The position numbers were made by a program, and so were the translations under genes. From the NCBI GenBank assembly GCA_945877855.1, contig CAMDWA010000001.1, forward strand, positions 1-64,000: 64,000 nucleotides of DNA. The letters run 5' to 3'. Source of the DNA: Thermoflexus hugenholtzii JAD2. GTDB taxonomy: Bacteria; Chloroflexota; Anaerolineae; J036; Brachytrichaceae. Positions within the stretch are counted from its first letter, which is position 1. Each line of letters starts with the position of its first letter. Below the pieces are notes generated by a model. It did not search any database. It had not been told where the DNA came from and saw only the letters and a list, made by a program, of their open reading frames with translations. Below, piece after piece: positions 3,686 to 58,228 of the stretch.

Positions 3686-3740
3686 AAAGGATGAAGGATG
3701 AAGGATGAAGGATGAAGAATTCTTCATCCTTCATCCTTTA
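3686..3740. repeat. Inverted heptamer-repeat hairpin (GGATGAA)
   Basis: Four GGATGAA-type heptamers are followed at once by their reverse complement (TTCATCC) with the palindrome GAATTC at the centre, making a nearly loop-free hairpin of about 25 bp per arm. It lies inside the ABC operon, just after the SBP stop codon. Confidence 0.85.
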
Positions 3741-9536: not shown

Positions 9537-10496
9537 ATGAATCCAAGCATTCTCATTGTTTTTGGCGGCGACGCCAGCCATGAACGCGCCACTTTGGCGT
9601 CGCTCAACCCGCGTATTGTGCATGTGCCAGACTTTGATCACCCAGACGCGCTGGCGGCTTTGCCCGAAGCCGATGCCATTATGTTTACCTTGCAATATGT
9701 TGGGGCCGACATTATGGACAAAGCGCCCAAATGTAAGATTCTCTCGCGGCTGGGTGTGGGCTACGACAATATCGATATTCCCGCCGCCACAGCGCGGGGC
9801 ATGTGGGTGTCGTATGTGCCCGATTATGGGGTGGATGAGGTGGCGGGCCACGCCATTGCCCTGATGATGGAGGGGATGCGCGGGGTAGGCCGCTTGTCTA
9901 CGTCGGTCAAGGCTGGTAAATGGGGGCTTGGCTCGGTTGCGCCAGTGAAACGCATGAGCGATTCGGTGCTGGGGGTGCTTGGTTTTGGGCGAATTGGGCG
10001 TGAGGCTGGCAAAAAGGCGCATGGCTTGGGCATGAAGGTGCTGGCCTATGACCCGATTGTGTCTGCCGAGAACATCGCCGCCACCGGTTGCGAACCCGCC
10101 AGCCTAGAGCGGGTGTTGCGCGAGAGCGATTATGTCACCTTGCATACGCCATTGTCCGACAGCACGCGCCATCTCATCAACGCCAACACCTTGGCGATGA
10201 TGAAACCGAGCGCTTTTCTCGTCAACACCGCCCGCGGCGGTCTGATTGATGAGGCCGCGCTGCTGGATGCGCTGAATAACGGCGTCATTCGCGGCGCTGG
10301 GTTGGATGTCTTTCAGAAGGAACCTGCGCCCGCCGATCATCCGCTGGTGTCGCACCCTAAGGTCATCGCCACGCCCCACGCGGCGTTTTATAGCGAAGAA
10401 GCCGTGCGTGACCTGCACATTCGCGGGGCCGAGGAGGTCGTGCGTGTGTTGACCGGCGGTGTGCCGCGTTGCCCGTTGAATAGGGTGAGTGGGTGA
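9537..10496 (+). CDS. D-2-hydroxyacid dehydrogenase, NAD-binding
   Basis: 319-residue member of the D-isomer 2-hydroxyacid dehydrogenase family. The Rossmann motif GFGRIGREAGKKA (about residues 145-157), the catalytic Arg in NTARGGLIDE, the QKEPAPADHPL glutamate region and the catalytic His in ATPHAAF are all intact. It starts 2 bp after the GntR stop, so it is the last gene of the 5370-10496 operon. It probably interconverts a 2-hydroxyacid and a 2-oxoacid that feeds the E1/E2 complex. It is a distant paralogue of the gene at 808-1851. Confidence 0.9.
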   Translation: MNPSILIVFGGDASHERATLASLNPRIVHVPDFDHPDALAALPEADAIMFTLQYVGADIMDKAPKCKILSRLGVGYDNIDIPAATARGMWVSYVPDYGVDEVAGHAIALMMEGMRGVGRLSTSVKAGKWGLGSVAPVKRMSDSVLGVLGFGRIGREAGKKAHGLGMKVLAYDPIVSAENIAATGCEPASLERVLRESDYVTLHTPLSDSTRHLINANTLAMMKPSAFLVNTARGGLIDEAALLDALNNGVIRGAGLDVFQKEPAPADHPLVSHPKVIATPHAAFYSEEAVRDLHIRGAEEVVRVLTGGVPRCPLNRVSG

Positions 10497-10500
10497 CAGG

Positions 10501-10840
10501 GTGACAAGGTGAGGGGGTGACGAAGTGAGGCAATCGGCCCCTAGCCCCATTTATGGGGCGTTGTTAAGTAGCGCGGGGATTGCTCCCCGTGCGAACCCAA
10601 TCCCCCGCAAAATAAACATCATCATGCGCCGTGATGTCAAAATCACGTCGGGCGCACCCGCACGGGGATCAATCCCCGCGCGAACCCAATCCCCCGCAAA
10701 ACAAACATCATCATGCGTCGTGATGTCAATATCGCGTCGGGCGCACCCGCACGGGGATCAATCCCCACGCTACTTAACAACGCCCTGTAAATGGGGCTAG
10801 GGGGCGATTGCATCGCCTTGCCACCCCCTCACCTTGTCAT
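10501..10840. repeat. Three-level nested palindrome containing 89-bp tandem repeats
   Basis: The outermost arms are GTGACAAGGTGAGGGGGTG (10501-10519) and its complement (10822-10840). Inside lies a second inverted repeat, from CAATCGG / CCCTAGCCCCAT at 10531 to ATGGGGCTAGGGGGCGATTG ending at 10810. Inside that are two direct copies of an 89-bp unit (10574-10662 and 10663-10751) plus the first 16 bp of a third. Each unit begins with a small CGGGGATnnnTCCCCG-type hairpin and contains a CATCATGCG...TGATG stem. No coding sequence is convincing here. Confidence 0.85.
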
Positions 10841-25101: not shown

Positions 25102-26082
25102 ATGAACAAAGGTCTCACCGATATTTCGGGCCTACAGGTAGGCCATTGGACGAACAAAGAAGGCGGCACCGGCTGCACGGCCATATTATGCCCACCCGAA
25201 GGTGCGGTGTGTGGGGTTGATGTGCGCGGCGGCGCACCCGGCACCCGCGAAACCGATTTGCTGCGCCCCGAATGCAGCGTCGAGAAAGTTCATGCCATTA
25301 TGTTGGCGGGTGGCAGCGCCTTTGGGTTGGCGGCGGCAGATGGGGCGATGCATTGGCTCGAAGAACATGGGCGCGGTTACGATGTCGGTGTTGCTAAGGT
25401 TCCGATTGTGCCATCGGCCATTTTGTTTGATTTACCGATGATTACACCCAAAGCCCGCCCCGACGCCGCCGCTGGTTATGCCGCCTGTCAAGCCGCAAGT
25501 GATGCGGCTGTGGTCAACGGCACGATTGGCGCAGGCACTGGGGCGACAGTTGGCAAAATATTGGGGTTGCGTCAGGCCACCAAAGGTGGCATTGGCAGCG
25601 CCAGTAAACATATTACCAATGGCATTGTTGTATCGGCACTGGTGGCGCTGAACGCCTTTGGCGCGGTGATTGACCCCAAAACCGGCGAGATCATCGCTGG
25701 GCCGCGTAAACCTATTGGCAAAGGCTTTGTCGATCCGGTCGAGGCGGCCCAAGGCTTTATTGGGCAGACCATCGCCCGCGCCCGCGAAGCGTGGAGCGAA
25801 CGGGCTAACACCACGCTTGCCGTGGTTGCCACCAATGTCATTTTGACGAAGGCCCAAGCGACCAAAGTGGCGCAAATGGCGCATGACGGCCTCGCCCGCA
25901 CCATTCGCCCGATTCATACGTTGTTTGATGGCGATGTGGTATTTGCGTTGTCGCATGGCGATAAAAAAGCCGATGTCAGCCTCATTGGTGCGCTGGCCGC
26001 CGATGTTTTGGCCGAGGCTGTGATCAACGCTGTCCAATCTGCCACCGGCCTTGGCGGCGTGCCAGCCATGCGCGAACTTTGA
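25102..26082 (+). CDS. P1 family peptidase (DmpA/aminopeptidase-like, autoprocessing)
   Basis: 326 residues of the DmpA/BapA Ntn-like family. The N-terminal TDISGLQVGHWT and the GGSAFGLAAADG motif are typical, as is GTIGAGTGATVGK. The self-cleavage site is expected before the nucleophile in the N-T-T-L-A-V-V segment near residue 238, generating two subunits from one chain. Members cleave N-terminal D- or L-amino acids or beta-peptides. A TATCAT box at 25087-25092 sits 9 nt before the ATG, so a very short leader is possible. Confidence 0.88.
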   Translation: MNKGLTDISGLQVGHWTNKEGGTGCTAILCPPEGAVCGVDVRGGAPGTRETDLLRPECSVEKVHAIMLAGGSAFGLAAADGAMHWLEEHGRGYDVGVAKVPIVPSAILFDLPMITPKARPDAAAGYAACQAASDAAVVNGTIGAGTGATVGKILGLRQATKGGIGSASKHITNGIVVSALVALNAFGAVIDPKTGEIIAGPRKPIGKGFVDPVEAAQGFIGQTIARAREAWSERANTTLAVVATNVILTKAQATKVAQMAHDGLARTIRPIHTLFDGDVVFALSHGDKKADVSLIGALAADVLAEAVINAVQSATGLGGVPAMREL

Positions 26083-26196
26083 AAGTGCAAAGTGCAAAGT
26101 TGAAAGTAAAAAGTGTTGAGCGATATGTAGTGACTCATTACTTTTACTTTTTACTTTGCACTTTTTACTTTGCACTCCTAATTTTGCACTTTCATC
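26083..26196. repeat. Inverted heptamer-repeat hairpin (TGCAAAG)
   Basis: Tandem TGCAAAG / TTGAAAG units at the left and TTACTTTTTACTTTGCACTT-type complement at the right, between convergent stops of the P1 peptidase and the GHMP-type gene. Confidence 0.8.
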
Positions 26197-27092
26197 GTTG
26201 CGCCGTCGTTGTCACAGATCACGCCCATGACTTCAGGGCCAAAGTAACCGAGGGCTTTGACTAAGGCTTGGCGAATGGCGCGGCTGTCATCGCCACCGTG
26301 AATGATGCTGTAGTAGCCGAGGCCACTTAGGGCACGGGCTTGCATGGCTGCGCCATTTGCTTGTAGCAAAGGCAAAATGGGGTCATCGTCGGCATCGGCT
26401 TGGCTTTGGGCGGGGGCCGATTCGGCCCGCAGTTTGGCTAAGGCTTGGGCAAAGGCATCGAATTCACGGCGTTCAGCAGCGTTAAATAATTGATTGGCGG
26501 CGGCAAAGGCGGCTTCGCGGTTGATGTTGGCCTTGGCTTGCCACAGGGTGCGGCGTTGCTGCAATTCATAGTCTTCGGGCAAGCCATCGGGTGGCATCGG
26601 CATGACCAAAATCCACACCCACGCATTGTCATCATCGATAAAGTCGATGAGCACATGTCGTCGTAAACGGCCTGTGCCGTCTACCGCCACCAAACCGCCA
26701 TTCTGATATGCCTGAACTTCGCAAGCGTGGGTTGGTAAATTGAGCGCGTCGGGGATGGTGTCGGGATCGATGGTGACTGAGCCGTAAAATGGCGATAACA
26801 CTTGCGCAACGGCAAGGCTGTGCATGGCATCTGAGCCATAGCCCATTGCGGCTGGCAAGCCCGATTCAATTTCAAGCTCGCCCGAAGGTTGTAGGTTGTA
26901 ATGAGCAAAAAAGCGTTGTGCTTGTTCATTTGTCCAGTCGGCTCGCCCTCCCGAAGCGATGAATTCATAGGCCGGGTGTGCCGTCAAGTCGATTCGTGGG
27001 CCTTGCAAGGCCACACCAATTTCGCACCACTCGCCATCGATAGGCGCAAGGCCGAGGAACAAACAAGCAGGAACTTGGAGATGAATTTTCAT
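26178..27092 (-). CDS. GHMP kinase superfamily protein, beta-RFAP synthase-like
   Basis: 304 residues from the ATG at 27092; an upstream in-frame ATG at 27119 would add 9 residues. The pattern VPACLFLGLAPIDGEWCEIG then VALQGPRIDL at the N-terminus and the Ser/Gly-rich loop ESGLPAAMGYGSDAMHSLA (about residues 85-103) match the beta-ribofuranosylaminobenzene 5'-phosphate synthase branch of the GHMP fold, known from methanopterin synthesis. Many bacterial homologues have no known role. The GHMP phosphate loop is imperfect, so kinase activity is doubtful. This assignment rests on motif recall. Confidence 0.6.
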   Translation of the reverse strand: MKIHLQVPACLFLGLAPIDGEWCEIGVALQGPRIDLTAHPAYEFIASGGRADWTNEQAQRFFAHYNLQPSGELEIESGLPAAMGYGSDAMHSLAVAQVLSPFYGSVTIDPDTIPDALNLPTHACEVQAYQNGGLVAVDGTGRLRRHVLIDFIDDDNAWVWILVMPMPPDGLPEDYELQQRRTLWQAKANINREAAFAAANQLFNAAERREFDAFAQALAKLRAESAPAQSQADADDDPILPLLQANGAAMQARALSGLGYYSIIHGGDDSRAIRQALVKALGYFGPEVMGVICDNDGATMKVQN

Positions 27093-27513: not shown

Positions 27514-28434
27514 ATGACCGCAACGAAACACCCCAACAGCCTAAAACGCAAAACCCGTTTGGGCGAAAAACTAATTCAAGCCTTTTTCTTTTTTTGTGGT
27601 TTTGTTTCTATCTTTACGACGCTTGGCATTGTGGTGGCGCTTGGTTCACAGGCGTTGCGCTTTTTTGGCGAGCCGAGCATCAACCCGATTGAGTTGATCA
27701 CCACTACCAATTGGTCGCCCAACATTGGCGAGATTGGGATTTGGTCGTTGGTGACATCGACGCTGATCACGACTTTTTTGGCGCTTTTGGTGGCGATTCC
27801 ATTAGGGTTGGCGGCTGCCATTTATCTAAGCGAATATGCTACGCCCAAGGTGCGTAATACGCTTAAACCCATTCTCGAAATTTTGGCGGGTGTGCCAACC
27901 GTGGTGTATGGCTATTTTGCCTTAACCTTTATGACCCCATTATTGCGCCTCATTTTTGGTAGCGATGTGGTCAAAATTTACAACATGGCTTCGGCAGGGT
28001 TGGTGTGTGGGGTGATGATTATCCCGCTGATCTGCTCGATGAGCGAAGATGCCTTACGCGCTGTGCCTCGTAGCCTGCGCGAAGGCTCTTTTGGCTTGGG
28101 CGCAACCAAGCTAGAGACCAGCCTCAGGGTTGTGTTGCCCGCGGCGTTGTCGGGTGTTATCGCTGCCATTGTGGTGGGCACATCCCGCGCCATCGGTGAA
28201 ACGATGATTATGGCGACGGCGGCAGGGGCTGGCCCCAATTTCACCTTTAATCCATTCGAGAGCGCCGAAACGATGGCTGGGCACATTGTGCGTATCAGCG
28301 GCGGTGATGTTGATTACAACAGTATCGATTACACCAGCATTTTTATCGTCGGCCTTACCTTGTTTTTAATGACTTTAGCGCTCAATTTTCTCAGCCGTTA
28401 TTTTGTAAATAAGTATCGTGAAGTTTATGAATAA
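27514..28434 (+). CDS. pstC: Phosphate ABC transporter permease PstC
   Basis: 306 residues, six transmembrane helices. Conserved PstC features are LAAAIYLSEYATPKVRNTLK then PILEILAGVPTVVYG, and the later RAVPRSLREGSFGLGATKLE coupling loop. It forms the channel with PstA for high-affinity phosphate import. It is the first gene of a pstC-pstA-pstB-phoU operon behind a Pho box. No pstS (periplasmic phosphate-binding protein) precedes it, so PstS must be encoded elsewhere. Confidence 0.92.
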   Translation: MTATKHPNSLKRKTRLGEKLIQAFFFFCGFVSIFTTLGIVVALGSQALRFFGEPSINPIELITTTNWSPNIGEIGIWSLVTSTLITTFLALLVAIPLGLAAAIYLSEYATPKVRNTLKPILEILAGVPTVVYGYFALTFMTPLLRLIFGSDVVKIYNMASAGLVCGVMIIPLICSMSEDALRAVPRSLREGSFGLGATKLETSLRVVLPAALSGVIAAIVVGTSRAIGETMIMATAAGAGPNFTFNPFESAETMAGHIVRISGGDVDYNSIDYTSIFIVGLTLFLMTLALNFLSRYFVNKYREVYE

Positions 28435-28485
28435 GAATGAAGGTTGATGACTTCTTCAACCTTTATCCTTCAACCTTTAACCTTT
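28435..28485. repeat. Short inverted repeat between pstC and pstA
   Basis: GAATGAAGGTTGATGA-type left arm and CTTCAACCTTTATCCTTCAACC right arm, of the same heptamer-repeat design as other gaps. Confidence 0.6.
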
Positions 28486-28502
28486 ACTTCTAATCCCTAA
28501 AA

Positions 28503-29752: not shown

Positions 29753-29880
29753 GTGAGCCATGAGCTTTGAGCTTTGAGCCGTGAGCCATGACTCACGAAC
29801 AGTTTTAGCTCAAGGCTCAAGGTCACGGCTCACGGCTCATGGCTCATGGCTCATGGCTCATGGCTCACAGCCCAAAGCCC
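29753..29880. repeat. Inverted heptamer-repeat hairpin (GGCTCAT)
   Basis: Five GGCTCAT-type heptamers in tandem (29834-29868) answer GAGCCATGAGCTTTGAGC on the left around a centre near 29795. The repeat runs into the leader of pstB and is so clean that it looks recently expanded. Confidence 0.9.
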
Positions 29881-29892
29881 ATCATAAAAAAC

Positions 29893-31551: not shown

Positions 31552-31656
31552 TTGTATTTTTTTTCGGAATTTGCTCTAAGCCGACTATAAAGAAACCCGC
31601 CAATGGATCGAGCGTTTGATCGCGGAAGGATAGCGATTACAATAGGCTCGATTCAC

Positions 31657-32211
31657 ATGCAAGTAACTACCGGCAAGGCCAAGGGCCGCACCCTCTATTC
31701 TGTTCCCAGCGAAAATACCCGACCGATTACGGATCGGGTGAAACAAGCGTTATTTAACATCATCGGCGATGACGTGCGTAATAGCACATGGCTCGATTTA
31801 TTCGCCGGAACGGGCGCGGTGGGGATTGAAGCCCTGAGCCGAGGGGCCAAAAGTGTGATTTTTAACGACAAAGAATCGATTGCCGTTAAAACCATTCAAG
31901 CCAATTTGAGTATGTTGCAGCTTGAGGCCAACGCCCGTGTATTGCGGCTCGATGCGTTTGCACTCTTGGCAGGTCGCCCCTCAACCCGCTACGATTTTAT
32001 TTATATTGCGCCGCCGCAAAATAAGGGGTTATGGTCGCGGGCGCTGATGACACTCGACCAAAATATTGGTTGGCTAAGCGATATTGGCTGTGCCGTTGTG
32101 CAAATTGACCCGCGTGAATCGACCACGCTCGCCCTCACCAACCTCGAACTCAGCGACGAACGCCGCTATGGCAAAACGTTGCTGTGTTTTTATGATCAAA
32201 TTAAGAAGTAG
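31657..32211 (+). CDS. rsmD: 16S rRNA (guanine(966)-N(2))-methyltransferase RsmD
   Basis: 184 residues from the ATG at 31657 (MQVTTGKAKGRTL). An upstream ATG at 31603 would add 18 non-conserved residues. It shows the RsmD block TRPITDRVKQALFNI, the SAM site LDLFAGTGAVGIEALSRGA and the catalytic motif IAPPQ, a variant of the usual DPPY-type motif also seen in this family. It methylates G966 of 16S rRNA. Its stop codon lies inside the left arm of the hairpin split by the downstream island. Confidence 0.88.
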   Translation: MQVTTGKAKGRTLYSVPSENTRPITDRVKQALFNIIGDDVRNSTWLDLFAGTGAVGIEALSRGAKSVIFNDKESIAVKTIQANLSMLQLEANARVLRLDAFALLAGRPSTRYDFIYIAPPQNKGLWSRALMTLDQNIGWLSDIGCAVVQIDPRESTTLALTNLELSDERRYGKTLLCFYDQIKK

Positions 32212-32243
32212 CAAGTGGCAGGTGGCAGGTGGCAGGTGCTAAG
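32205..32243 (+). repeat. Left arm of a split heptamer hairpin (GGCAGGT)
   Basis: GAAGTAGCAAGTGGCAGGTG continues with tandem GGCAGGT units and ends GCTAAG. Its reverse complement is not nearby but 5.3 kb away at 37540-37578, with the same order of elements. Confidence 0.85.
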
Positions 32244-32390
32244 TATGCACTATTTGATGTGGCTCCCTAAAAGTGGAGTCACATCAGTGAACTTTATATC
32301 TAAATAACAGAAGTCCACTGATGTAAAAATATCGTCATTGTTGAACCGTGGTATTTGGGTGTCACATCACAATCCATCTGACATTCGACC

Positions 32391-32978
32391 CTAGTCGGCA
32401 TCTGCCTCGTCGCCATAGTCATCATACAGGGGCAGGGAACCGAACTTGCCATCCCATTCCCGCTGCATGTGGCCAAGATATTTATCGCCATAAGAGGACT
32501 CATCCGAGGATTGCCAGAGGGATTCCTTTCCAATTCTTATTTCTTCCGCCGTTTGGTTTACATGTGAAATGCCATTTTTATGTTTAGCAGTTTTCACCCG
32601 AGACGATTCGAACTGGTCAGATTGGGGCGTTGGATTAGTCCGCTGCGGACATTTTGTCTGAATATGCTTTTCCAGACGATCAGGACGAACTGAAGCCATA
32701 CAGTTAGGACATTTGACTAGGTCAATGCGATTGTGCCTGACTGGGCGGGACAATTCAGGTGATGGTTTGGATCGATTGGGCATATGCCGGGTCACAGCTG
32801 GCTGTTTGGGGACCATTCGATCGGAGTCTGGCTTATCAAGCTTCGCCTTGATTGGATTCATACTGCGAGTGTGGACTCCTGGGGGAATTTGATTCGATCT
32901 AGGTGCAGCAAACGTATTTCGTTTCTCCCCGGTGACGAATCCATATTCATCTAGTACGTATACGTGTGTTTTCTTCAT
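32391..32978 (-). CDS. Uncharacterised zinc-finger protein in helicase island
   Basis: 195 residues, very basic and Pro-rich, with no transmembrane segment. One clear zinc motif lies at about residues 90-110: CPNCMASVRPDRLEKH followed by IQTKCP, a CxxC...H...C (C2HC) finger. The N-terminus starts KKTHVYVLDEYGFVTGEK. The C-terminus is acidic (DDYGDEADAD). No family is recognised. It lies downstream of, and on the same strand as, the SF1 helicase with about 125 bp between them, so co-expression is plausible. Confidence 0.6.
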   Translation of the reverse strand: MKKTHVYVLDEYGFVTGEKRNTFAAPRSNQIPPGVHTRSMNPIKAKLDKPDSDRMVPKQPAVTRHMPNRSKPSPELSRPVRHNRIDLVKCPNCMASVRPDRLEKHIQTKCPQRTNPTPQSDQFESSRVKTAKHKNGISHVNQTAEEIRIGKESLWQSSDESSYGDKYLGHMQREWDGKFGSLPLYDDYGDEADAD

Positions 32979-33105
32979 TTCTGTAACCCTCTTCTACTAA
33001 TATCGAGCAGCCAATAAGAACATTTTACATGAAATATAGTTTTGCCAGCTACTGGTGCTGTTAGCAGGTATTGTTTGCTCGGTGTCCACCTGCCCAGCGA
33101 ACAAG

Positions 33106-35748
33106 TTACTGCAACCAGCTTAGTCGTCGCTTCCAGGTGCAGGTTGGGAAGTTAGCACAGCCAACAAACACGCTGGAACTTTGTTTGCCTTCAACGGGTC
33201 CACCACATTTTTCACACACCTTGCCGGTTAAGCGGGCTAAGACGGTGGCATCGTTGGGCAGAAAACGGCGGCGGTGGTTGCAGGCTGGATTAGAACAGCA
33301 TACACTTAAACCGCCATATTCATTGTCGGCGTGGGTCAACGGTGATTTGCAGTTTGGACAATTGCCGTATAAGCCATTGTCAGCCAAGATCTCTGGGGTC
33401 TGGATCGGAATCTTGATGGTGTTAGGGGGCACCAGCTCGATCAAACCGTAGAGTGTCTTAATCATTTCGGTGTGTTGAATATGGATTGCGCCTGCATTTG
33501 GATCATTTGGGTCAGTAAACAGCCAAAGTGATTTTCGATCAATTGCAACCAAGCCAGAACGAATGTTTGATTTGGCTTTGAGAAATACGATTGCCGAGAC
33601 TGGATGCTGCTGATTATCTGGCTGAGGCGCAGCCACGTAGACTCTGGTCCCGCTAGCCGCACGCATTTTTAACATATGCACTTGGAAACTTTGCTGCGAC
33701 AGGGCTTGTGGCCAAACGATTGCAATTTCCTCAGTTGCTTTTTCTAGGGCGTTTACGAGGCTTTGGTCGGCAATTCGCCGGGTTGGGAATACGGTGCCCA
33801 ATGCGGATATGAGATTGACACAGGATTGCCAGTCCATTTTGGTATATGTGCCTTTAGAACTCATAAGATCAAACGTAATTGTCATGGCGCTATCGGGTAG
33901 ATTTTGATGCAAATAGTCAAGATGCCCGATGGCGATGAACTTGCTCTTGGCACGACTGACTGCCACATTCATCAGACGCGCAGTAGTGCTTTCCATATCG
34001 CCAGTTGACAATTTGCCGGGACGTTTTGGGGGGGCTTCGACGGCATCAAAAATGACCATATCGCATTCAGAGCCTTGATATTTGTGAACCGTAGCAACCC
34101 GCACCTGCTGGCTTAATTTTGTGTCGCGTAATAAACGATTGATGAGTCTTGCCTGGGCGTTATATGGCGTGATGATGGCAACCGGGTTTTGCCCGTCCGG
34201 ATGCGGTTTTCCACTGGAGCGAATTGCTTCCCGGGCAAGGGCAACGCACATCAGGGCTGTAAGGATATTGAATCGACTTCCGCCAAAGGCCTCGCTGAAG
34301 CAGAAGGCGTTCAGGTTGGATGTGTCAATGGTGAGCACGGCTTTCTGTGAGCTGGGCGCAATACTCGCAATAAAGCCTTGGTTATTGACAACCTCGACTG
34401 TATTCGTCAACCGCTTGTAGTAGGATAGTTGATTGATGATTTGGCTGATATCTGGGTGCATACGGTATTGTTCGCGCAGCATGACCAAACGACGATCTTC
34501 TCGTCCTTGGGCAACGGCCTCAGCAATCCTGGCGTGCTGAAAAATATCGGTCGAAAGCCACTGCACGGCCTTGGGTGTTTCGGCTAGACTAATCGGCGGT
34601 AATTGCTTGAAATCGCCAAAAATGGCGACACGTTTAGTGGCTAGACTGGCCAGAAAAGCAGCCTGCGGAATACTGGCCATACTTGCTTCATCGAGTATGA
34701 CGTTGTCAAATGTCCGCGCATAAATGCTGTCGTCGATGGCGGCTTTGGAGAGGGTAGCGATGACGAGTTTTGCATCTGTCAACAGCACTTTTTCAGCCGC
34801 TCGAATCAGCTCGAGAATTTGATTTCGTTGTTGCTTAATCTGGTTCAGTTGGTCCGGAATCGCGTCTTTTTCGGTTAGGGTTAGTTTTGCTTGGCTAAGC
34901 TGTTTGTGGAGGGTGGCTTTTTGCTTTTCCAAGGACTCAAGCTCTTGGATTAGCTTTGGTTGTCGTTGTGCCATGATAGTACGGGATGACAACATTTCAT
35001 AATTATTCACCTCAGACAGAATCGGAATGCCGGCGCGGATACATTTGCCATCAAGATAGATTGCCTGATCGGTCAAATGTAGGGCGGTGTTAAGTGTGGC
35101 AACATCAACAGCAGTATTACTGTGGGCAGCAATTAATACGGATTCGCCCTGTTGCAGCAGGGTGGCCGCCACAACACCCAGCGTCCTGGTCTTGCCTGTA
35201 CCGGGCGGGCCCCAGATGAAGGACAGGTCTTGGCCAAGTATGGTTGTCAATGATTTGTTTTGCAGTGGATTTAGAGTGTTGGGCGGCAGCCAACGATTTG
35301 CGTGGGCGGGCTGCCGGGTCACACCCATCGCATCGTGCCCACGCAGCATCCGAAGTAACACCGGGTTTCTGGCATCACTGCCAAGAGTGGGGATTGCACC
35401 CAAGCGCAATTGGAGTTGTTCCAGGAGAAACCAGGGTCGGGCATACAGTCGGATCTCATCGAGGGAATCGCCCAAATGTTCATCGACACCGATAACAAGG
35501 TCGAAACCGTGTGACGAAACCAGGTGTCCTTCGTGTCGCTTGCCGCGATACTCGACCTCTATGGGTGAGCCGTCAAGTATCCGCACTTCGGAGTCACAGG
35601 TAAACACGTATAGGTATTCCGATTTCTTACCCAGATAAATTCCGCCCACGGCTATGACAGGCGCAGTATGTTTATGTTTTGCTTGTTTTATTTCTTCGTC
35701 TAGTGCTTGATTAAACTGATATACGAAGCTGTCAAGTGAGGTAGCCAT
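33106..35748 (-). CDS. SF1 (COG1112-like) helicase with degenerate PLD-like domain and zinc ribbons
   Basis: 880 residues. Helicase motifs: Walker A GPPGTGKT (residues about 180-187), a coiled coil at about 262-320, motif II ILDEAS (351-356), GDFKQLPP (378-385), REQYRMHP (425-432), the motif V region VATVHKYQGSE (551-561) and motif VI NVAVSRAKS (594-602). Residues about 640-775 resemble a phospholipase-D-like fold, but the HxKxxxxD motif is replaced by R730-x-G732-xxxx-D737. The C-terminus has zinc ribbons at about 797-823 and a topoisomerase-type C4 finger at 845-870. The layout recalls Mokosh-type (helicase plus PLD) antiphage proteins, with the nuclease site lost. That link is inference. 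Confidence 0.85.
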   Translation of the reverse strand: MATSLDSFVYQFNQALDEEIKQAKHKHTAPVIAVGGIYLGKKSEYLYVFTCDSEVRILDGSPIEVEYRGKRHEGHLVSSHGFDLVIGVDEHLGDSLDEIRLYARPWFLLEQLQLRLGAIPTLGSDARNPVLLRMLRGHDAMGVTRQPAHANRWLPPNTLNPLQNKSLTTILGQDLSFIWGPPGTGKTRTLGVVAATLLQQGESVLIAAHSNTAVDVATLNTALHLTDQAIYLDGKCIRAGIPILSEVNNYEMLSSRTIMAQRQPKLIQELESLEKQKATLHKQLSQAKLTLTEKDAIPDQLNQIKQQRNQILELIRAAEKVLLTDAKLVIATLSKAAIDDSIYARTFDNVILDEASMASIPQAAFLASLATKRVAIFGDFKQLPPISLAETPKAVQWLSTDIFQHARIAEAVAQGREDRRLVMLREQYRMHPDISQIINQLSYYKRLTNTVEVVNNQGFIASIAPSSQKAVLTIDTSNLNAFCFSEAFGGSRFNILTALMCVALAREAIRSSGKPHPDGQNPVAIITPYNAQARLINRLLRDTKLSQQVRVATVHKYQGSECDMVIFDAVEAPPKRPGKLSTGDMESTTARLMNVAVSRAKSKFIAIGHLDYLHQNLPDSAMTITFDLMSSKGTYTKMDWQSCVNLISALGTVFPTRRIADQSLVNALEKATEEIAIVWPQALSQQSFQVHMLKMRAASGTRVYVAAPQPDNQQHPVSAIVFLKAKSNIRSGLVAIDRKSLWLFTDPNDPNAGAIHIQHTEMIKTLYGLIELVPPNTIKIPIQTPEILADNGLYGNCPNCKSPLTHADNEYGGLSVCCSNPACNHRRRFLPNDATVLARLTGKVCEKCGGPVEGKQSSSVFVGCANFPTCTWKRRLSWLQ

Positions 35749-35825
35749 AGCGAATTAGTTGCAAAGTTGAATAAGAAAATAAAGATGTTTTCGAAGGCAC
35801 AAGAATTACGCACGTTTTCATCACG

Positions 35826-36014
35826 GTGACTATCGGGAATGGAGCGAAGGCAAAAATTTTTATGCATAGCACGCTTTACTTTTTAGATGGACGCTGGACT
35901 TTCTCATCAACAACTGATGAAGGCGACCGAGTTGATCGGCACAAGAGTAGCCTCTTTAGTCAATTTGGGCAAGTAGGCAACCGCCCGATTAAGGCTGTCA
36001 TTCTGAAGGACTGA
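35826..36014 (+). CDS. Small hypothetical ORF truncated by IS insertion
   Basis: 62 codons, no recognised family. If the IS and one target copy are removed in silico, the frame would read on for a few codons (LKEPQRRE) and stop. No clear Shine-Dalgarno is visible. It may be only non-coding leader between the helicase gene and the island's right end. Confidence 0.2.
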   Translation: MTIGNGAKAKIFMHSTLYFLDGRWTFSSTTDEGDRVDRHKSSLFSQFGQVGNRPIKAVILKD

Positions 36015-37448
36015 TCGTTTACGAACATTTGTGCATGCTCAGGAATCATCTTGAATCAACCGAGCACCCTCAGCCCAAAGCAAGAGCTGTTGCCAACCGC
36101 GCCAAATCGTGCGCCAACCCGGCGGATGCTGACGCGGATTGGCAACATAACCGCCCAAACGCGCAACCAACAACCAAAATTCACTCACTGCAATAGTGAT
36201 AGACACTCTAAACCGTGCCATGATCAAACGTAACATCACCGGATCAACCACTTGCTGGGCTGGGAGGTCTGGTGCATTGCGTGCAATCTGTCGCATTTGT
36301 AGCAAATGAACCGCGATCGGTAATGCAAAACCGAGTAGGTTTTGTAAGTCTCGCCCATCGTCCAATTGGCTGCTTTCAACTTTGCACCCCGTCTTTAGAC
36401 ACATATGAAAATCTTTAATCATCCAACGGCATTCATAGTAACTGATCACACGTTTTGCATCTTCCGCGCTTTGCACCTGCAAACTCGTAAGTAAAATCCA
36501 TTCAACCGCCTCGACATTGGCTGGCGGATTCACTTCCCATACACGCACTACACACGCTACGATGGGCTGTTGTTCTATGGCTGATTGCGGCGCTTTAATT
36601 TCTACCGCACTCCAGCTCACCACTAGCTTGGCTTTTCGTTTCGGATGCTTGCTGCTTGCATCTACTTCTACCTCATAAGCCGGGTAACTTTCATTGGCCG
36701 GCAAACCACGCGCATAATCTAACAATCGCGTTTCGGTATCTTGATTTAATGCACGATTGACCTTGGCTCGTAGCACGAATCCCATCCCATGTTCCTGACA
36801 ACTTCGCATATGTTCATAGATATCGCTCTCTCGATCACTTACATTAATCCATTGGCTTGACTCATGAGGATTTCCTCCTATCGCTTTCACCCCGTTTTCC
36901 CATACACGGCCTTCTGTCCCCTTGTGTCTTCTTTCTCGATCTAGGCCACCTCTTTTTTCTGACCGCACGATCATTTCAACGTAACCTAAGCCCAAAACGT
37001 GTCGTTGGTCTGCTTCGACTGCCAATACACTCCCCATGATTAGTCCATGTTGACCTTTATAACAGCTTATGCCGCCTAAGTTTTTGGTGTGTTGGTGTGT
37101 AGTGAAATCTAACATCGTTTTATCATGAATAAACAACACCACTTTTTTCTTAGCCGCTGCGCTTAATGTATGTCTCAGATGTGGCTCAAGTAGCTGTTTC
37201 ATTGTGATTCGACGACTATTTATTAAGCGATATGCTGCTGCCAGTTTGTCGGGTGATGCCAGTTGTTGGGGCAGACTGGCTTCAGGCTTTATCACCATAT
37301 GTTGCCCTATTTCAACGGCTCGTGCGGTGCGTAATACGTTGTTGAGTTTGCATTCTCCCCACTGTTCTTTTGCCCATTCGAGGTTATCTATCATATTGCG
37401 CCTATTCTTTCACGCTTTGCCGTCGTACATTTGTTCGTAAACGATCAG
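36011..37448. mobile_element. Complete IS4-family insertion sequence with 11-bp target duplication
   Basis: Terminal inverted repeats CTGATCGTTTACGAACA (left, 36011-36027) and its complement ending at 37448. The 11-bp direct repeat ATTCTGAAGGA flanks both sides (36000-36010 and 37449-37459), as expected for IS4-group transposition. The identical duplication means recent insertion. It encodes one transposase. Confidence 0.92.
36039..37394 (-). CDS. IS4 family (Tn5-like) transposase, catalytic Glu replaced by Lys
   Basis: 451 residues. First catalytic Asp is D91 in FIHDKTMLDF, the second is D187 in NVSDRESDIYEH. The YREK region reads YECRWMIKDFHMCLKTGC: Tyr, Arg and the final Lys are in place, but the position of the catalytic glutamate (Y-2-R-3-E-6-K) is K327, codon AAA. 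A single G-to-A change from GAA would explain it. The neighbouring D328 might or might not compensate. A Tn5-like N-terminal DNA-binding region precedes (AYRLINSRRIT). Confidence 0.9.
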   Translation of the reverse strand: MIDNLEWAKEQWGECKLNNVLRTARAVEIGQHMVIKPEASLPQQLASPDKLAAAYRLINSRRITMKQLLEPHLRHTLSAAAKKKVVLFIHDKTMLDFTTHQHTKNLGGISCYKGQHGLIMGSVLAVEADQRHVLGLGYVEMIVRSEKRGGLDRERRHKGTEGRVWENGVKAIGGNPHESSQWINVSDRESDIYEHMRSCQEHGMGFVLRAKVNRALNQDTETRLLDYARGLPANESYPAYEVEVDASSKHPKRKAKLVVSWSAVEIKAPQSAIEQQPIVACVVRVWEVNPPANVEAVEWILLTSLQVQSAEDAKRVISYYECRWMIKDFHMCLKTGCKVESSQLDDGRDLQNLLGFALPIAVHLLQMRQIARNAPDLPAQQVVDPVMLRLIMARFRVSITIAVSEFWLLVARLGGYVANPRQHPPGWRTIWRGWQQLLLWAEGARLIQDDS

Positions 37449-37539
37449 ATTCTGAAGGAGCCGCAGCGCCGCGAGTAATCTTGCACCGTTACAGAATCTC
37501 GGCCCAACATACGCTTGCCGCGCATCATACGCACAGATT

Positions 37540-37578
37540 CTTAGCACTTGCCACCTGCCACTTGCTACCTGCTACTTC
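37540..37578 (-). repeat. Right arm of the split heptamer hairpin
   Basis: CTTAGCACTTGCCACCTGCC and onward to GCTACTTC. This is the reverse complement of 32205-32243 with only a few mismatches. It lies directly downstream of the M20 stop codon. Confidence 0.85.
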
Positions 37579-37579
37579 T

Positions 37580-38734
37580 CTAGCGTTTCAAATAGCGACG
37601 GGCGGTTTCGGCCATGATGGCGGCGCCGGTGCTGAGAACGGATTCATCGATATCGAAATCGGGGTGGTGATGAGGGCGGGGTTTGTCGCCAATGGCCGCG
37701 CCGAGGCCGATAAAGCCGCCGCGTGCTTTTTGTGCCATATAGGCAAAGTCTTCGCCTGCCATCATGGGGTGCGCCTCTTGCACCCAATTATTGCCGATCA
37801 AATCTTGGGCCACACTGCGAATAAATTGGGCGGCATCTTTGTCATTGATGGTAGCCGGGTAGCCATATGGGTGGGTTAGGGTATAGTCACCCCCCATTGT
37901 GCGCGCAATTGAGAAGGCTTGCTCTAGCCCGGCGTGTAATTGTGCCCGCACTTCTGCTTCAAATGAGCGAATGGTTCCGCTCATATCGACCTTCATCGGA
38001 ATGACATTATTGACAGTGCCCGCGTGAATGGTGCCGATGGTGATGACGGCTTTGAGGGCTGGGTCGATGCGCCGAGGGATGATGCCATACACAGCTGGCA
38101 ATACTTGCGATGCTAGCCAAATGGGGTCGAGTGAGCGATGTGGAAAGGCGGCGTGACCGCCTACGCCCAATATTGACCCACTAAATGAGTCAGCTGCTGC
38201 GGTAATTGGGCCATCGCTGACCGAAACAACCCCGCTGGTTTCACCGCTGCCGACGTGTAAGCCCCATACCATCTCCACATCATCCAGTGCGCCTTCATCC
38301 ACCATCAACTTGCCGCCACTTTTATCGTCGGCCCCGCCTTCTTCAGAGGGCTGAAACAATAATTTGATGGTGCCGTTAATCTCTTCTTTTGCCAACAATT
38401 CGGCCACGCCCAACAAAATGGCGGTGTGGGCATCGTGACCGCAGGCGTGCATGACCCCCGGGTGTTGCGATTTATAGGGCGAGTCATTGGTTTCGGTAAT
38501 GGGCAGCGCGTCCATATCGGCGCGTAAGCCAATGGTTGGGCCATTGCCATTGCCCAACACGGCCACAATGCCGGTTTTTGCCACGCCACGTTGGTGCTCA
38601 ACCCCCAATGCGGTGAGTTGATCTGACACATATTGACTGGTTTGAAATTCCTGAAAACCAAGCTCAGGGCGGGCATGAATATGCCGGCGATACATCACCA
38701 ATTTGGGTTGGAGGAGTCTTGCGCGTTCTAACAT
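37580..38734 (-). CDS. M20 family metallo-amidohydrolase
   Basis: 384 residues from the ATG at 38734; the in-frame ATG at 38791 adds 19 residues that overlap the amylase stop region. Zinc ligands are seen in HACGHDAHTAILLG and in the FQPSEEGG glutamates, with a dimerisation domain (about 190-300). The N-terminal RRHIHARPELGFQEF is typical of N-acyl-amino acid / IAA-amino acid hydrolases. It probably hydrolyses N-acyl or peptide-like amides in the cytoplasm. It starts just downstream of the GH13 gene on the same strand (stop 38761), so the two may be co-transcribed. Confidence 0.9.
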   Translation of the reverse strand: MLERARLLQPKLVMYRRHIHARPELGFQEFQTSQYVSDQLTALGVEHQRGVAKTGIVAVLGNGNGPTIGLRADMDALPITETNDSPYKSQHPGVMHACGHDAHTAILLGVAELLAKEEINGTIKLLFQPSEEGGADDKSGGKLMVDEGALDDVEMVWGLHVGSGETSGVVSVSDGPITAAADSFSGSILGVGGHAAFPHRSLDPIWLASQVLPAVYGIIPRRIDPALKAVITIGTIHAGTVNNVIPMKVDMSGTIRSFEAEVRAQLHAGLEQAFSIARTMGGDYTLTHPYGYPATINDKDAAQFIRSVAQDLIGNNWVQEAHPMMAGEDFAYMAQKARGGFIGLGAAIGDKPRPHHHPDFDIDESVLSTGAAIMAETARRYLKR

Positions 38735-38760
38735 GGCTGTATTGTAAAACAGATGGTGGG

Positions 38761-40422
38761 TTATTTCCACACCACTACCAACATGCCCCAAGGCTCAAGT
38801 GGCAACTGAGATAGGTCGGTTGCTAATGCGCCTAGCACGGCTTTGGGTTTGCTTTGGGCTGGCACAGATGCGCTTGTAAGGTCAAATGGGATTTTTTGTG
38901 CAGCTTCGCCAAAATTGAAGATGAGCAAAGTCGCTTCGCCCGCTGCATAGCGCCACAGCCCCAAACACTGGTCACAATCGCCGACGTTTTCGATAACGCT
39001 AAAGTCGTTTGAACGCAACGACGGATATTGCGCACGCAATTGCGCCAAACGGCGATAAAACGATAAAAGACTGTCGGGCTTGACCTCTTGTTCTTGCACC
39101 GATATGCCATCATTTGGGGCGTTATTACGGTTGGCTGGCTTAAACCAATGGGTCATGCCTATGCCATTTTCGTTGGCATACCAATCCATCGGTTCGCGGC
39201 GTAATTCGTCATACACCGGCCCCTCGCCTTTGTTGCCGCGCATCCCGATCTCTTCGCCGTAATAAATCATGGGCACGCCCGGGGTGAGCAAGGCCGAAGT
39301 GGCGGCCAATTTCATGCGGCGCAGGTCGCCTAGGCTGTCGCTGGCGATGCGGTTGGTGTCGTGGTTGCTGCTAAAACGCACCAATTGGGCACCGCTTGGG
39401 TAGGCGCGTTGTATTAAACGATAAGGTGATTGTAATAATGTGGCAGGTTGTTTGCCATTGAGCACCCCATCGCCATTGCGGTCAGGGTTGCCAGTCAGGG
39501 TGAGATACCAAGGGAAATCGAATAAGGCATCGAACCCTGCCTCGAAATAACGCTTCAGCGTCAGCGCCCCGCCATCCCATACCTCGCCCAAAATAACAGC
39601 ATTGGGGTGTTTGGCCTTTACTTTGCTGCGCAATTCGGCCCAAAACGGCGCTTCGACCCCCAGCGCATAATCGCAACGCAGGCCATCGGCCCCCAAATCA
39701 AGCCAAAATTGGGCCGAATTAATCAGATATTCACGCACATCGGGGTTATCGGTGTTCCAATCGGGCAAGTTTGGCACACCAAAAAATGAATCGTAGACGG
39801 TGTTTTGTTTGTCACGAAAGTGATACCACTGGCTGTAACGCGAGGCCGGATTTTTATAAGCGGCTTTAAAAAATGGATGACTGTCTGATGAATGGTTGGC
39901 GACAAAATCGACGATCAGGTGCATATTGCGGCGCTTTAGCTCAGTTGTCAGCGCCTTAAAGTCATCGAGTGTGCCAAATTGCGGGTTGACCTTGAAATAA
40001 TCGGTGACATCGTAGCCGTGATAAGTGGTGCTGGGGTAAAACGGGGTCAGCCAAATGGTATTTGCCCCTAGCGCTTGAATATAGTCGAGCTTTTGCCGAA
40101 CGCCGTTTAGGTCGCCGATACCATCGTTGTTGGTATCGTAAAAACTGCGCGGAAAAATCTCGTAGATAACCGCTTCATCAAACCAATTGGGCGATTTAAT
40201 CACTTTGCCGTCTGGCTTGAGGGCCGGGGTTGGGCGCGGTGTGGCGGTTGGGGGGATGGGTGTTGGGCTGGCCGATGGTCGCGTGGTAGCGGTGGGATCT
40301 GTGGGCGGCTGGGTGACAGGTGCAAGGGGTTGCGGGTTGCTTTGGCAGGCCGTTAGGCTTGTGATGAGCACGGTAAGCGCCGCAAAAATGCTTGTTTTAA
40401 AGTTGCCAGATACGTAATTCAT
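38761..40422 (-). CDS. GH13 alpha-amylase family lipoprotein
   Basis: 553 residues. A signal peptide with lipobox LTAC (about residues 22-25) and a Pro/Thr linker indicate a surface-anchored enzyme. Catalytic regions: I LIVDFVANHSS, II DGLRCDYALG (nucleophile Asp), III ILGEVWDGG (acid/base Glu), IV FSSNHDTNR (transition-state Asp). An EIFPRSFYDTNNDGIGDLNG block precedes them, as in alpha-glucosidase and neopullulanase-like members. It probably releases malto-oligosaccharides or glucose outside the cell. Exact specificity is uncertain. Confidence 0.92.
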   Translation of the reverse strand: MNYVSGNFKTSIFAALTVLITSLTACQSNPQPLAPVTQPPTDPTATTRPSASPTPIPPTATPRPTPALKPDGKVIKSPNWFDEAVIYEIFPRSFYDTNNDGIGDLNGVRQKLDYIQALGANTIWLTPFYPSTTYHGYDVTDYFKVNPQFGTLDDFKALTTELKRRNMHLIVDFVANHSSDSHPFFKAAYKNPASRYSQWYHFRDKQNTVYDSFFGVPNLPDWNTDNPDVREYLINSAQFWLDLGADGLRCDYALGVEAPFWAELRSKVKAKHPNAVILGEVWDGGALTLKRYFEAGFDALFDFPWYLTLTGNPDRNGDGVLNGKQPATLLQSPYRLIQRAYPSGAQLVRFSSNHDTNRIASDSLGDLRRMKLAATSALLTPGVPMIYYGEEIGMRGNKGEGPVYDELRREPMDWYANENGIGMTHWFKPANRNNAPNDGISVQEQEVKPDSLLSFYRRLAQLRAQYPSLRSNDFSVIENVGDCDQCLGLWRYAAGEATLLIFNFGEAAQKIPFDLTSASVPAQSKPKAVLGALATDLSQLPLEPWGMLVVVWK

Positions 40423-56438: not shown

Positions 56439-56502
56439 ATTAATGGTTAATGGTTAATGGTTAATGGTTAACCATTGATCATTAACCATTAACCATTAAT
56501 TT
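56436..56502. repeat. Inverted heptamer-repeat hairpin (GGTTAAT)
   Basis: ATGGTTA units in tandem, then their complement TAACCAT after a 2-3 nt GATC centre. It lies between the Cas4-like gene and proS. Confidence 0.9.
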
Positions 56503-57931: not shown

Positions 57932-57942
57932 CTTTATCAATT

Positions 57943-58228
57943 ACGAATTACGAATTATGAATTACAAATTGCGAATTATGAATGATTTAGGACATTCAGA
58001 AAAAATAAACTTCCAATTCTCCGTTGTTTCCGTATCTCCGTGATCCAAACGCTATGGATTGCGGAAATACGGAAACAACGCAGAATCGAAGATAGGTTTT
58101 AAAGACTAATTTTTATTTTTATTTCTTCTGAATGGCCTTATGAATTATGAATTGACAGCATGAAGACATGACTTGGCCTCACTAAAGGCTGAACCTGTAA
58201 TTCGTAATTTGTAATTTACATTTTTGAA
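57943..58228. repeat. Nested palindrome: heptamer arms enclosing a second hairpin
   Basis: Outer arms are ACGAATT-type heptamers at 57943-57984 and AATTCGTAATTTGTAATT at 58199-58216. Inside lies a separate inverted repeat from CATTCAGAAAAAATAAA (57993) to its complement ending CTTCTGAATG (58134), whose core TCCGTTGTTTCCGTATCTCC pairs with the segment at 58061-58080. No coding potential. Confidence 0.8.

Follow-up and report, generated by a model that had tools for sequence, protein, structure and literature searches.

The STRRs of cyanobacteria are direct repeats of heptamers. Direct repeats of the heptamer TAACTGA have been described in Beggiatoaceae and cyanobacteria, and 1 of 170 repeat sets in a Beggiatoa genome is inverted (PMC4679880). 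IS elements are known to target REP palindromes (Tobes and Pareja, 2006; PMC1525189), and islands are documented that spread without an integrase, through recombination at adjoining core genes (PMC5635113). We analysed a 5.3-kb block that carries a helicase, a zinc-finger protein, and an IS between the rsmD and M20-family peptidase genes of Thermoflexus hugenholtzii JAD2 (genome G000), in a stretch of 64,000 nucleotides referred to below as the window (Table 1). The explanation that best accounts for the locus overall, to which we assign a probability of roughly three in four, is that the block split a spacer hairpin, gained an IS, and was exchanged between lineages by recombination in a flank.

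Table 1. Features of the block, its flanking genes, and the spacers used for hairpin comparison (window positions)
Feature	Position	Strand	Remarks
rsmD, 16S rRNA methyltransferase (flank)	31603..32211	+	Pfam PF03602, 160 bits; ortholog beside the G001 empty site
Left hairpin arm	32204..32246	+	Tandem heptamers; end = GTGCTAAG
Piece of dispersed short inverted repeat, GATGTGGCTCCCTAAAAGTGGAGTCACATC type	32252..32286	+	Just inside left arm; further genomic copies
195-aa protein, C2HC-type zinc finger	32391..32978	-	Weak zf-C2HC_2 match, 19 bits
880-aa Upf1-like SF1 helicase, C-terminal Zn ribbon	33106..35748	-	AAA_11/AAA_12/Zn_ribbon_Top1
Target-site duplication, left copy, ATTCTGAAGGA	36000..36010	+	From sequence
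IS4-family insertion sequence	36011..37448	-	NCBIfam NF033590, 299 bits
IS terminal inverted repeats, 22 bp	36011-36032 / 37427-37448		
IS transposase	36039-37394		
Target-site duplication, right copy, ATTCTGAAGGA	37449..37459	+	From sequence
Right hairpin arm	37537..37579	-	Identical in G003
M20-family peptidase (other flank)	37580..38791	-	Pfam PF01546; within low-divergence tract common to G003
Spacers with compared hairpins	26082-26199, 28434-28500, 29754-29881, 56440-56499, 57939-58217		Also the L106 and L114 sites

The two 43-nt arms that bound the block are separated by 5290 nt and agree at 38 of 43 positions after reverse complementing (88% complementary). Joined and folded as single-stranded DNA, they form a 40-bp stem that is nearly perfect and closed by a 6-nt loop, with a folding energy of -40.3 kcal/mol, compared to -13.4 for shuffles (z -11). 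The near-exact complementarity reported in the first-pass annotation is therefore real. Both arms consist of tandem heptamers of the GCAGGTG/GGCAAGT family. Arrays of this family are present in ≈10 further spacers in 448 kb (≈one site per 45 kb), and the left arm is identical over 33 of 33 positions to an array on a different contig. Because the family recurs in this way, the similarity of the arms is by itself little proof and is not unique, and the chance of finding an inverted GCAGGTG-family member within 5 kb is about 10%. What is exceptional is the arrangement of the arms rather than their sequence. They are two orphans that face each other, agree at each end, and abut the stop codons of rsmD and M20, the rsmD stop codon lying within the left arm at its outer end. 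Reading of the sequences places the starts of the arms at the stop codons of both flanking genes in G001 as well.

A census of repeat arrays covered 1.23 Mb, taken as stretches and amounting to 28% of the genome. Arrays of period 7 numbered 206 and those of period 8 numbered 32, while other periods counted 0-4, the multiple 14 excepted; tandem period-7 units are thus present as in STRR-like heptamer repeats. Among 261 strong period-7/8 arrays, 193 are paired with an inverted array no more than 150 bp away and ≈18% have no clear near partner. The earlier claim that such arms are adjacent at all other loci was nearly right, but it overlooked these unpaired arrays and a few loops with short inserts. 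The arms of the block are the sole orphan pair among the 261 that face each other at kilobase distance, and a search for further kilobase-scale orphan-arm pairs in the 1.23 Mb found none. Likewise, the idea that equivalent loops might hold other cargoes was not borne out in this 28% of the genome, where no second gene-carrying loop was found. A pair at 3687/7383 in the window, considered as a second split hairpin, was rejected, as each member is a compact hairpin in itself, both of one family.

These counts bear on whether the arms are merely two independent heptamer arrays that match by chance, such that a plain gene insertion was followed by the gain of an array in each new spacer. The abundance of the family, the unrelated array that equals the left arm over 33 nt, and the unpaired fraction of strong arrays are all compatible with this idea. 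However, the match between the arms extends beyond the heptamer core into their ends, both arrays are orphans, a search of 448 kb for other inverted matches to the left arm gave a top score of 25, against 30.5 here, and a compact hairpin occupies the equivalent place in G001. A chance pairing is thus very unlikely.

In G001, which belongs to the same genus, the rsmD-M20 spacer is ≈115 bp long and contains one compact hairpin and no cargo, between flanking genes whose DNA is ≈80% identical to that of this genome. This is the empty site with conserved flanks that the first-pass annotation had predicted, and together with the split arms it supports the proposal that a segment with the helicase, the zinc-finger protein, and the IS entered a hairpin loop. 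The G001 hairpin is built from an 8-mer, TGAATGGG, unrelated to the 7-mer GCAGGTG found here; because the repeat unit differs, it represents the type of site and not the exact pre-insertion sequence. There is no rsmD-M20 synteny in G002 and G006, where each gene lies in a different neighbourhood. The G001 site also argues against a helicase-bearing mobile unit that has the arms as its terminal inverted repeats and takes them along when it moves. The arms are inverted, complete, and exactly at the block edges, and arrays of their family occur elsewhere, in keeping with such a unit. But most family arrays are compact, cargo-free spacer hairpins, as is the hairpin at the G001 site; neither a target duplication nor a remnant of an older hairpin is seen outside the arms; and the only transposase inside, that of the IS4 element, has its own ends. 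We therefore regard a mobile unit of this kind as quite improbable.

The zinc ribbon of the helicase is of the topoisomerase type, and the predicted structure of the protein (pLDDT 82) has its best fold matches in Upf1 and Ighmbp2. The helicase is rare. Strong matches were found in 2 of 24 other relatives searched, namely G003 (near-identical) and G029 (39%), and in 2 of 399 other genomes sampled from the phylum. Full-length distant relatives (36-38%) are carried by two Nostocales plasmids, and no neighbourhood shared with the block was seen in their annotation. A phage origin of the helicase was rejected (phage records and IMG/VR gave no match), as was a foreign base composition of the block, the helicase being ordinary in composition for the genome. 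No second full copy of the helicase or the IS was found in the genome. Searches of the three block proteins against Pfam, NCBIfam, and PADLOC yielded no integrase or site-specific recombinase; the earlier statement that neither is present inside holds for these proteins, except that the IS4 transposase is there.

An ancestral helicase arrangement conserved in relatives, the pattern that would speak against insertion, was not found, as 22 of the 24 other relatives have no strong helicase match. A block ancestral to the group and later lost from G001 and the remaining relatives would agree with the host-like composition of the cargo. Yet it would require a precise deletion that left a hairpin behind, the rest of the sampled family has no strong match to the helicase, and the near-zero divergence from G003 described below implies recent transfer, all of which makes ancestry with loss highly improbable.

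We conclude that the IS is a later passenger within the block. Its ends and its 11-bp target duplication are internal to the block, which rules it out as the mover, and because it sits inside, it is not the carrier. One copy is present in G000, one in G003, and none in G001. The block edges themselves show neither element ends nor a convincing target duplication, as would be expected of a transposon island, apart from a weak 6/7 match (TATGCAC/TACGCAC) just inside both edges.

G003 holds the block, including the IS and the identical right arm. Alignment of positions 32651-37579 shows 3 differences in 4929 sites between the two genomes (99.94% identity), compared to 9 of 1212 sites (0.74%) in M20, 4.9% in the 8.5 kb beyond M20, and a median of 5.3% per kilobase in the aligned window. 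The divergence of the block is distinct from that downstream (Fisher p ≈1e-78) and from that of M20 (p 5e-5). Identity of 99.94%, set against ≈95% in the chromosome, implies a recent move between species, and as the divergence shows, the block moved as one piece between the G000 and G003 lineages. The low-divergence tract reaches into a flanking gene, with 0.74% in M20 and ≈5% beyond. Divergence in the block and on the M20 side is far below that elsewhere, and each genome has the IS only once; this region therefore changed hands after the split of the two species. Homologous recombination running through the M20 flank is the simplest and most likely mechanism. Block and M20 diverge to different degrees, which points to at least two events or tracts, and a single simple tract does not fully account for both values.

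The exchanged tract is visible on the M20 side. On the other side, matches to the G003 contig stop at position 32651 within the 195-aa gene, which is broken there in G003 by another element (contig break), and rsmD is unassembled; the left junction thus rests on one MAG. Repeats can break or misjoin assemblies of MAG data, and the whole arrangement might be viewed as an assembly artefact at a repeat. This is scarcely credible, given that the block and right junction are independently present in G003 and that G001 has both flanks at one locus.

The history that we favour would begin with an ancestral rsmD-M20 spacer that held one compact tandem-heptamer hairpin, like many spacers in the species group. 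Foreign genes for the helicase and the small zinc-finger protein would have entered the centre of this hairpin, leaving both arms complete. An IS4-family element then landed in the block and made its own target duplication, and the block finally moved between the G000 and G003 lineages, most likely on a homologous recombination tract that spanned the block and the M20 gene. Because homologous recombination would carry the block, no integrase would be needed for its spread. Both arms being complete suggests that the event took place at the tip of the hairpin. Given the intact arms and the lack of a convincing target duplication, our best guess, offered tentatively, is that DNA was captured during repair of a break at the tip. 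Alternatively, the genes may already have lain between two arrays of the same family in donor DNA, with the arrays acting as short homologies. Arrays of the family do share up to 33 nt of identity between sites, but a donor locus was not found and neither the helicase nor the IS has another full copy in the genome, and we consider entry from such a donor unlikely. Capture at a broken hairpin tip remains our preferred guess for the first entry.

The hairpin at this locus belongs to a larger set. Period-7 arrays occur at 17-27 per 100 kb in G000, G001, and G003, and were absent or few in the smaller samples from other relatives. We compared orthologous spacers in which this genome has arrays, counting by reading of the listed sequences together with unit calls. 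An array, usually a hairpin, was kept at nearly all of them. The unit family was the same in 11 of 13 spacers compared to G003 and in 3 of 14 compared to G001, and a change of unit in both arms with position kept was found at 2 of 13 and 11 of 14 sites, respectively. Hairpins are found in all gene orientations, which rules out a role solely as terminators of convergent genes. Spacers with hairpins are mostly filled by them, so that tolerated insertions would land in hairpins even without a preference for the tip.

Several individual sites were noted in addition. A nested hairpin in G001 (L094:3023-3193, ortholog of 56440-56499) has outer arms of TTAATGG, the unit of G000 and G003, and inner arms of AATGAGT, as if these had expanded from the centre in both directions. 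Approximately 46 tandem TTAATGG copies run up to the end of the contig that contains the window (L102:13399-13718), far more than in other arrays. At 10483-10840, octamer arms of GGTGACAA type were seen by eye around an insert of ≈290 bp (10530-10820), an inverted-repeat element that holds an 89-bp unit repeated 2.1 times. A 158-bp insert with duplicated TTATGAAT lies in an AATTACG hairpin at 57984-58141, where G003 has no insert. An element with AGGACTTACGCG ends occupies a hairpin loop in G001 (L090:2080-2283), and the same end also interrupts the block's 195-aa gene in G003 (L082:14797-14914).

Spacer hairpins may possibly be replaceable parts that keep their position between the flanking genes, exchange the unit of both arms for another out of a common stock of 7- and 8-mers, and take up foreign DNA at their tips, ranging in size from short elements up to this block, although we hold this view with considerable reserve. 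If true, there would have to be an active process that remakes both arms jointly and renders the tip breakable. Unit replacement in both arms at orthologous spacers is the most novel lead from this analysis. The block cleanly illustrates the spread of accessory genes between species without an integrase of their own; the site in its empty state, the point of insertion, and the exchanged tract on one side can all be seen. The larger point is that many spacers are tandem-heptamer hairpins of fixed position, both arms of which change in sequence between close relatives. They allow tests of how long palindromes originate, stay symmetrical, and admit new DNA.

The block and its hairpin each resemble described systems in part. 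Like the Mokosh anti-phage helicases (MkoA/MkoC), the block helicase has an SF1 core, which matches MkoA at 210 bits in PADLOC. The match covers the core only, no separate nuclease partner was seen in the block, and the best matches of the predicted structure are Upf1 and Ighmbp2; Pfam, searched with the C-terminal region as part of the longer protein, gave no PLD hit. In common with IS elements on REP sequences (PMC1525189), the locus has an intergenic palindrome as a landing place for mobile DNA. By contrast, the IS here lies inside the block and the hairpin is not its target, the block edges have no transposase, and the hairpin is a heptamer array and not a REP. Y1_Tnp (RAYT-type) matches are present in G000 and G001 and absent from G003, although hairpins occur there. 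The islands described in 2017 (PMC5635113) likewise consist of non-core genes between two conserved genes, with no integrase and with signs of recombination in the flank; the present case concerns a single block, found at a single site in two genomes and inserted in the middle of a repeat hairpin. Finally, the arrays share with TAACTGA repeats (PMC4679880) and STRRs their tandem 7-bp units, mostly intergenic location, and large number per genome, but differ in that most are paired as inverted hairpin arms that fill the spacer and are built from many different units.
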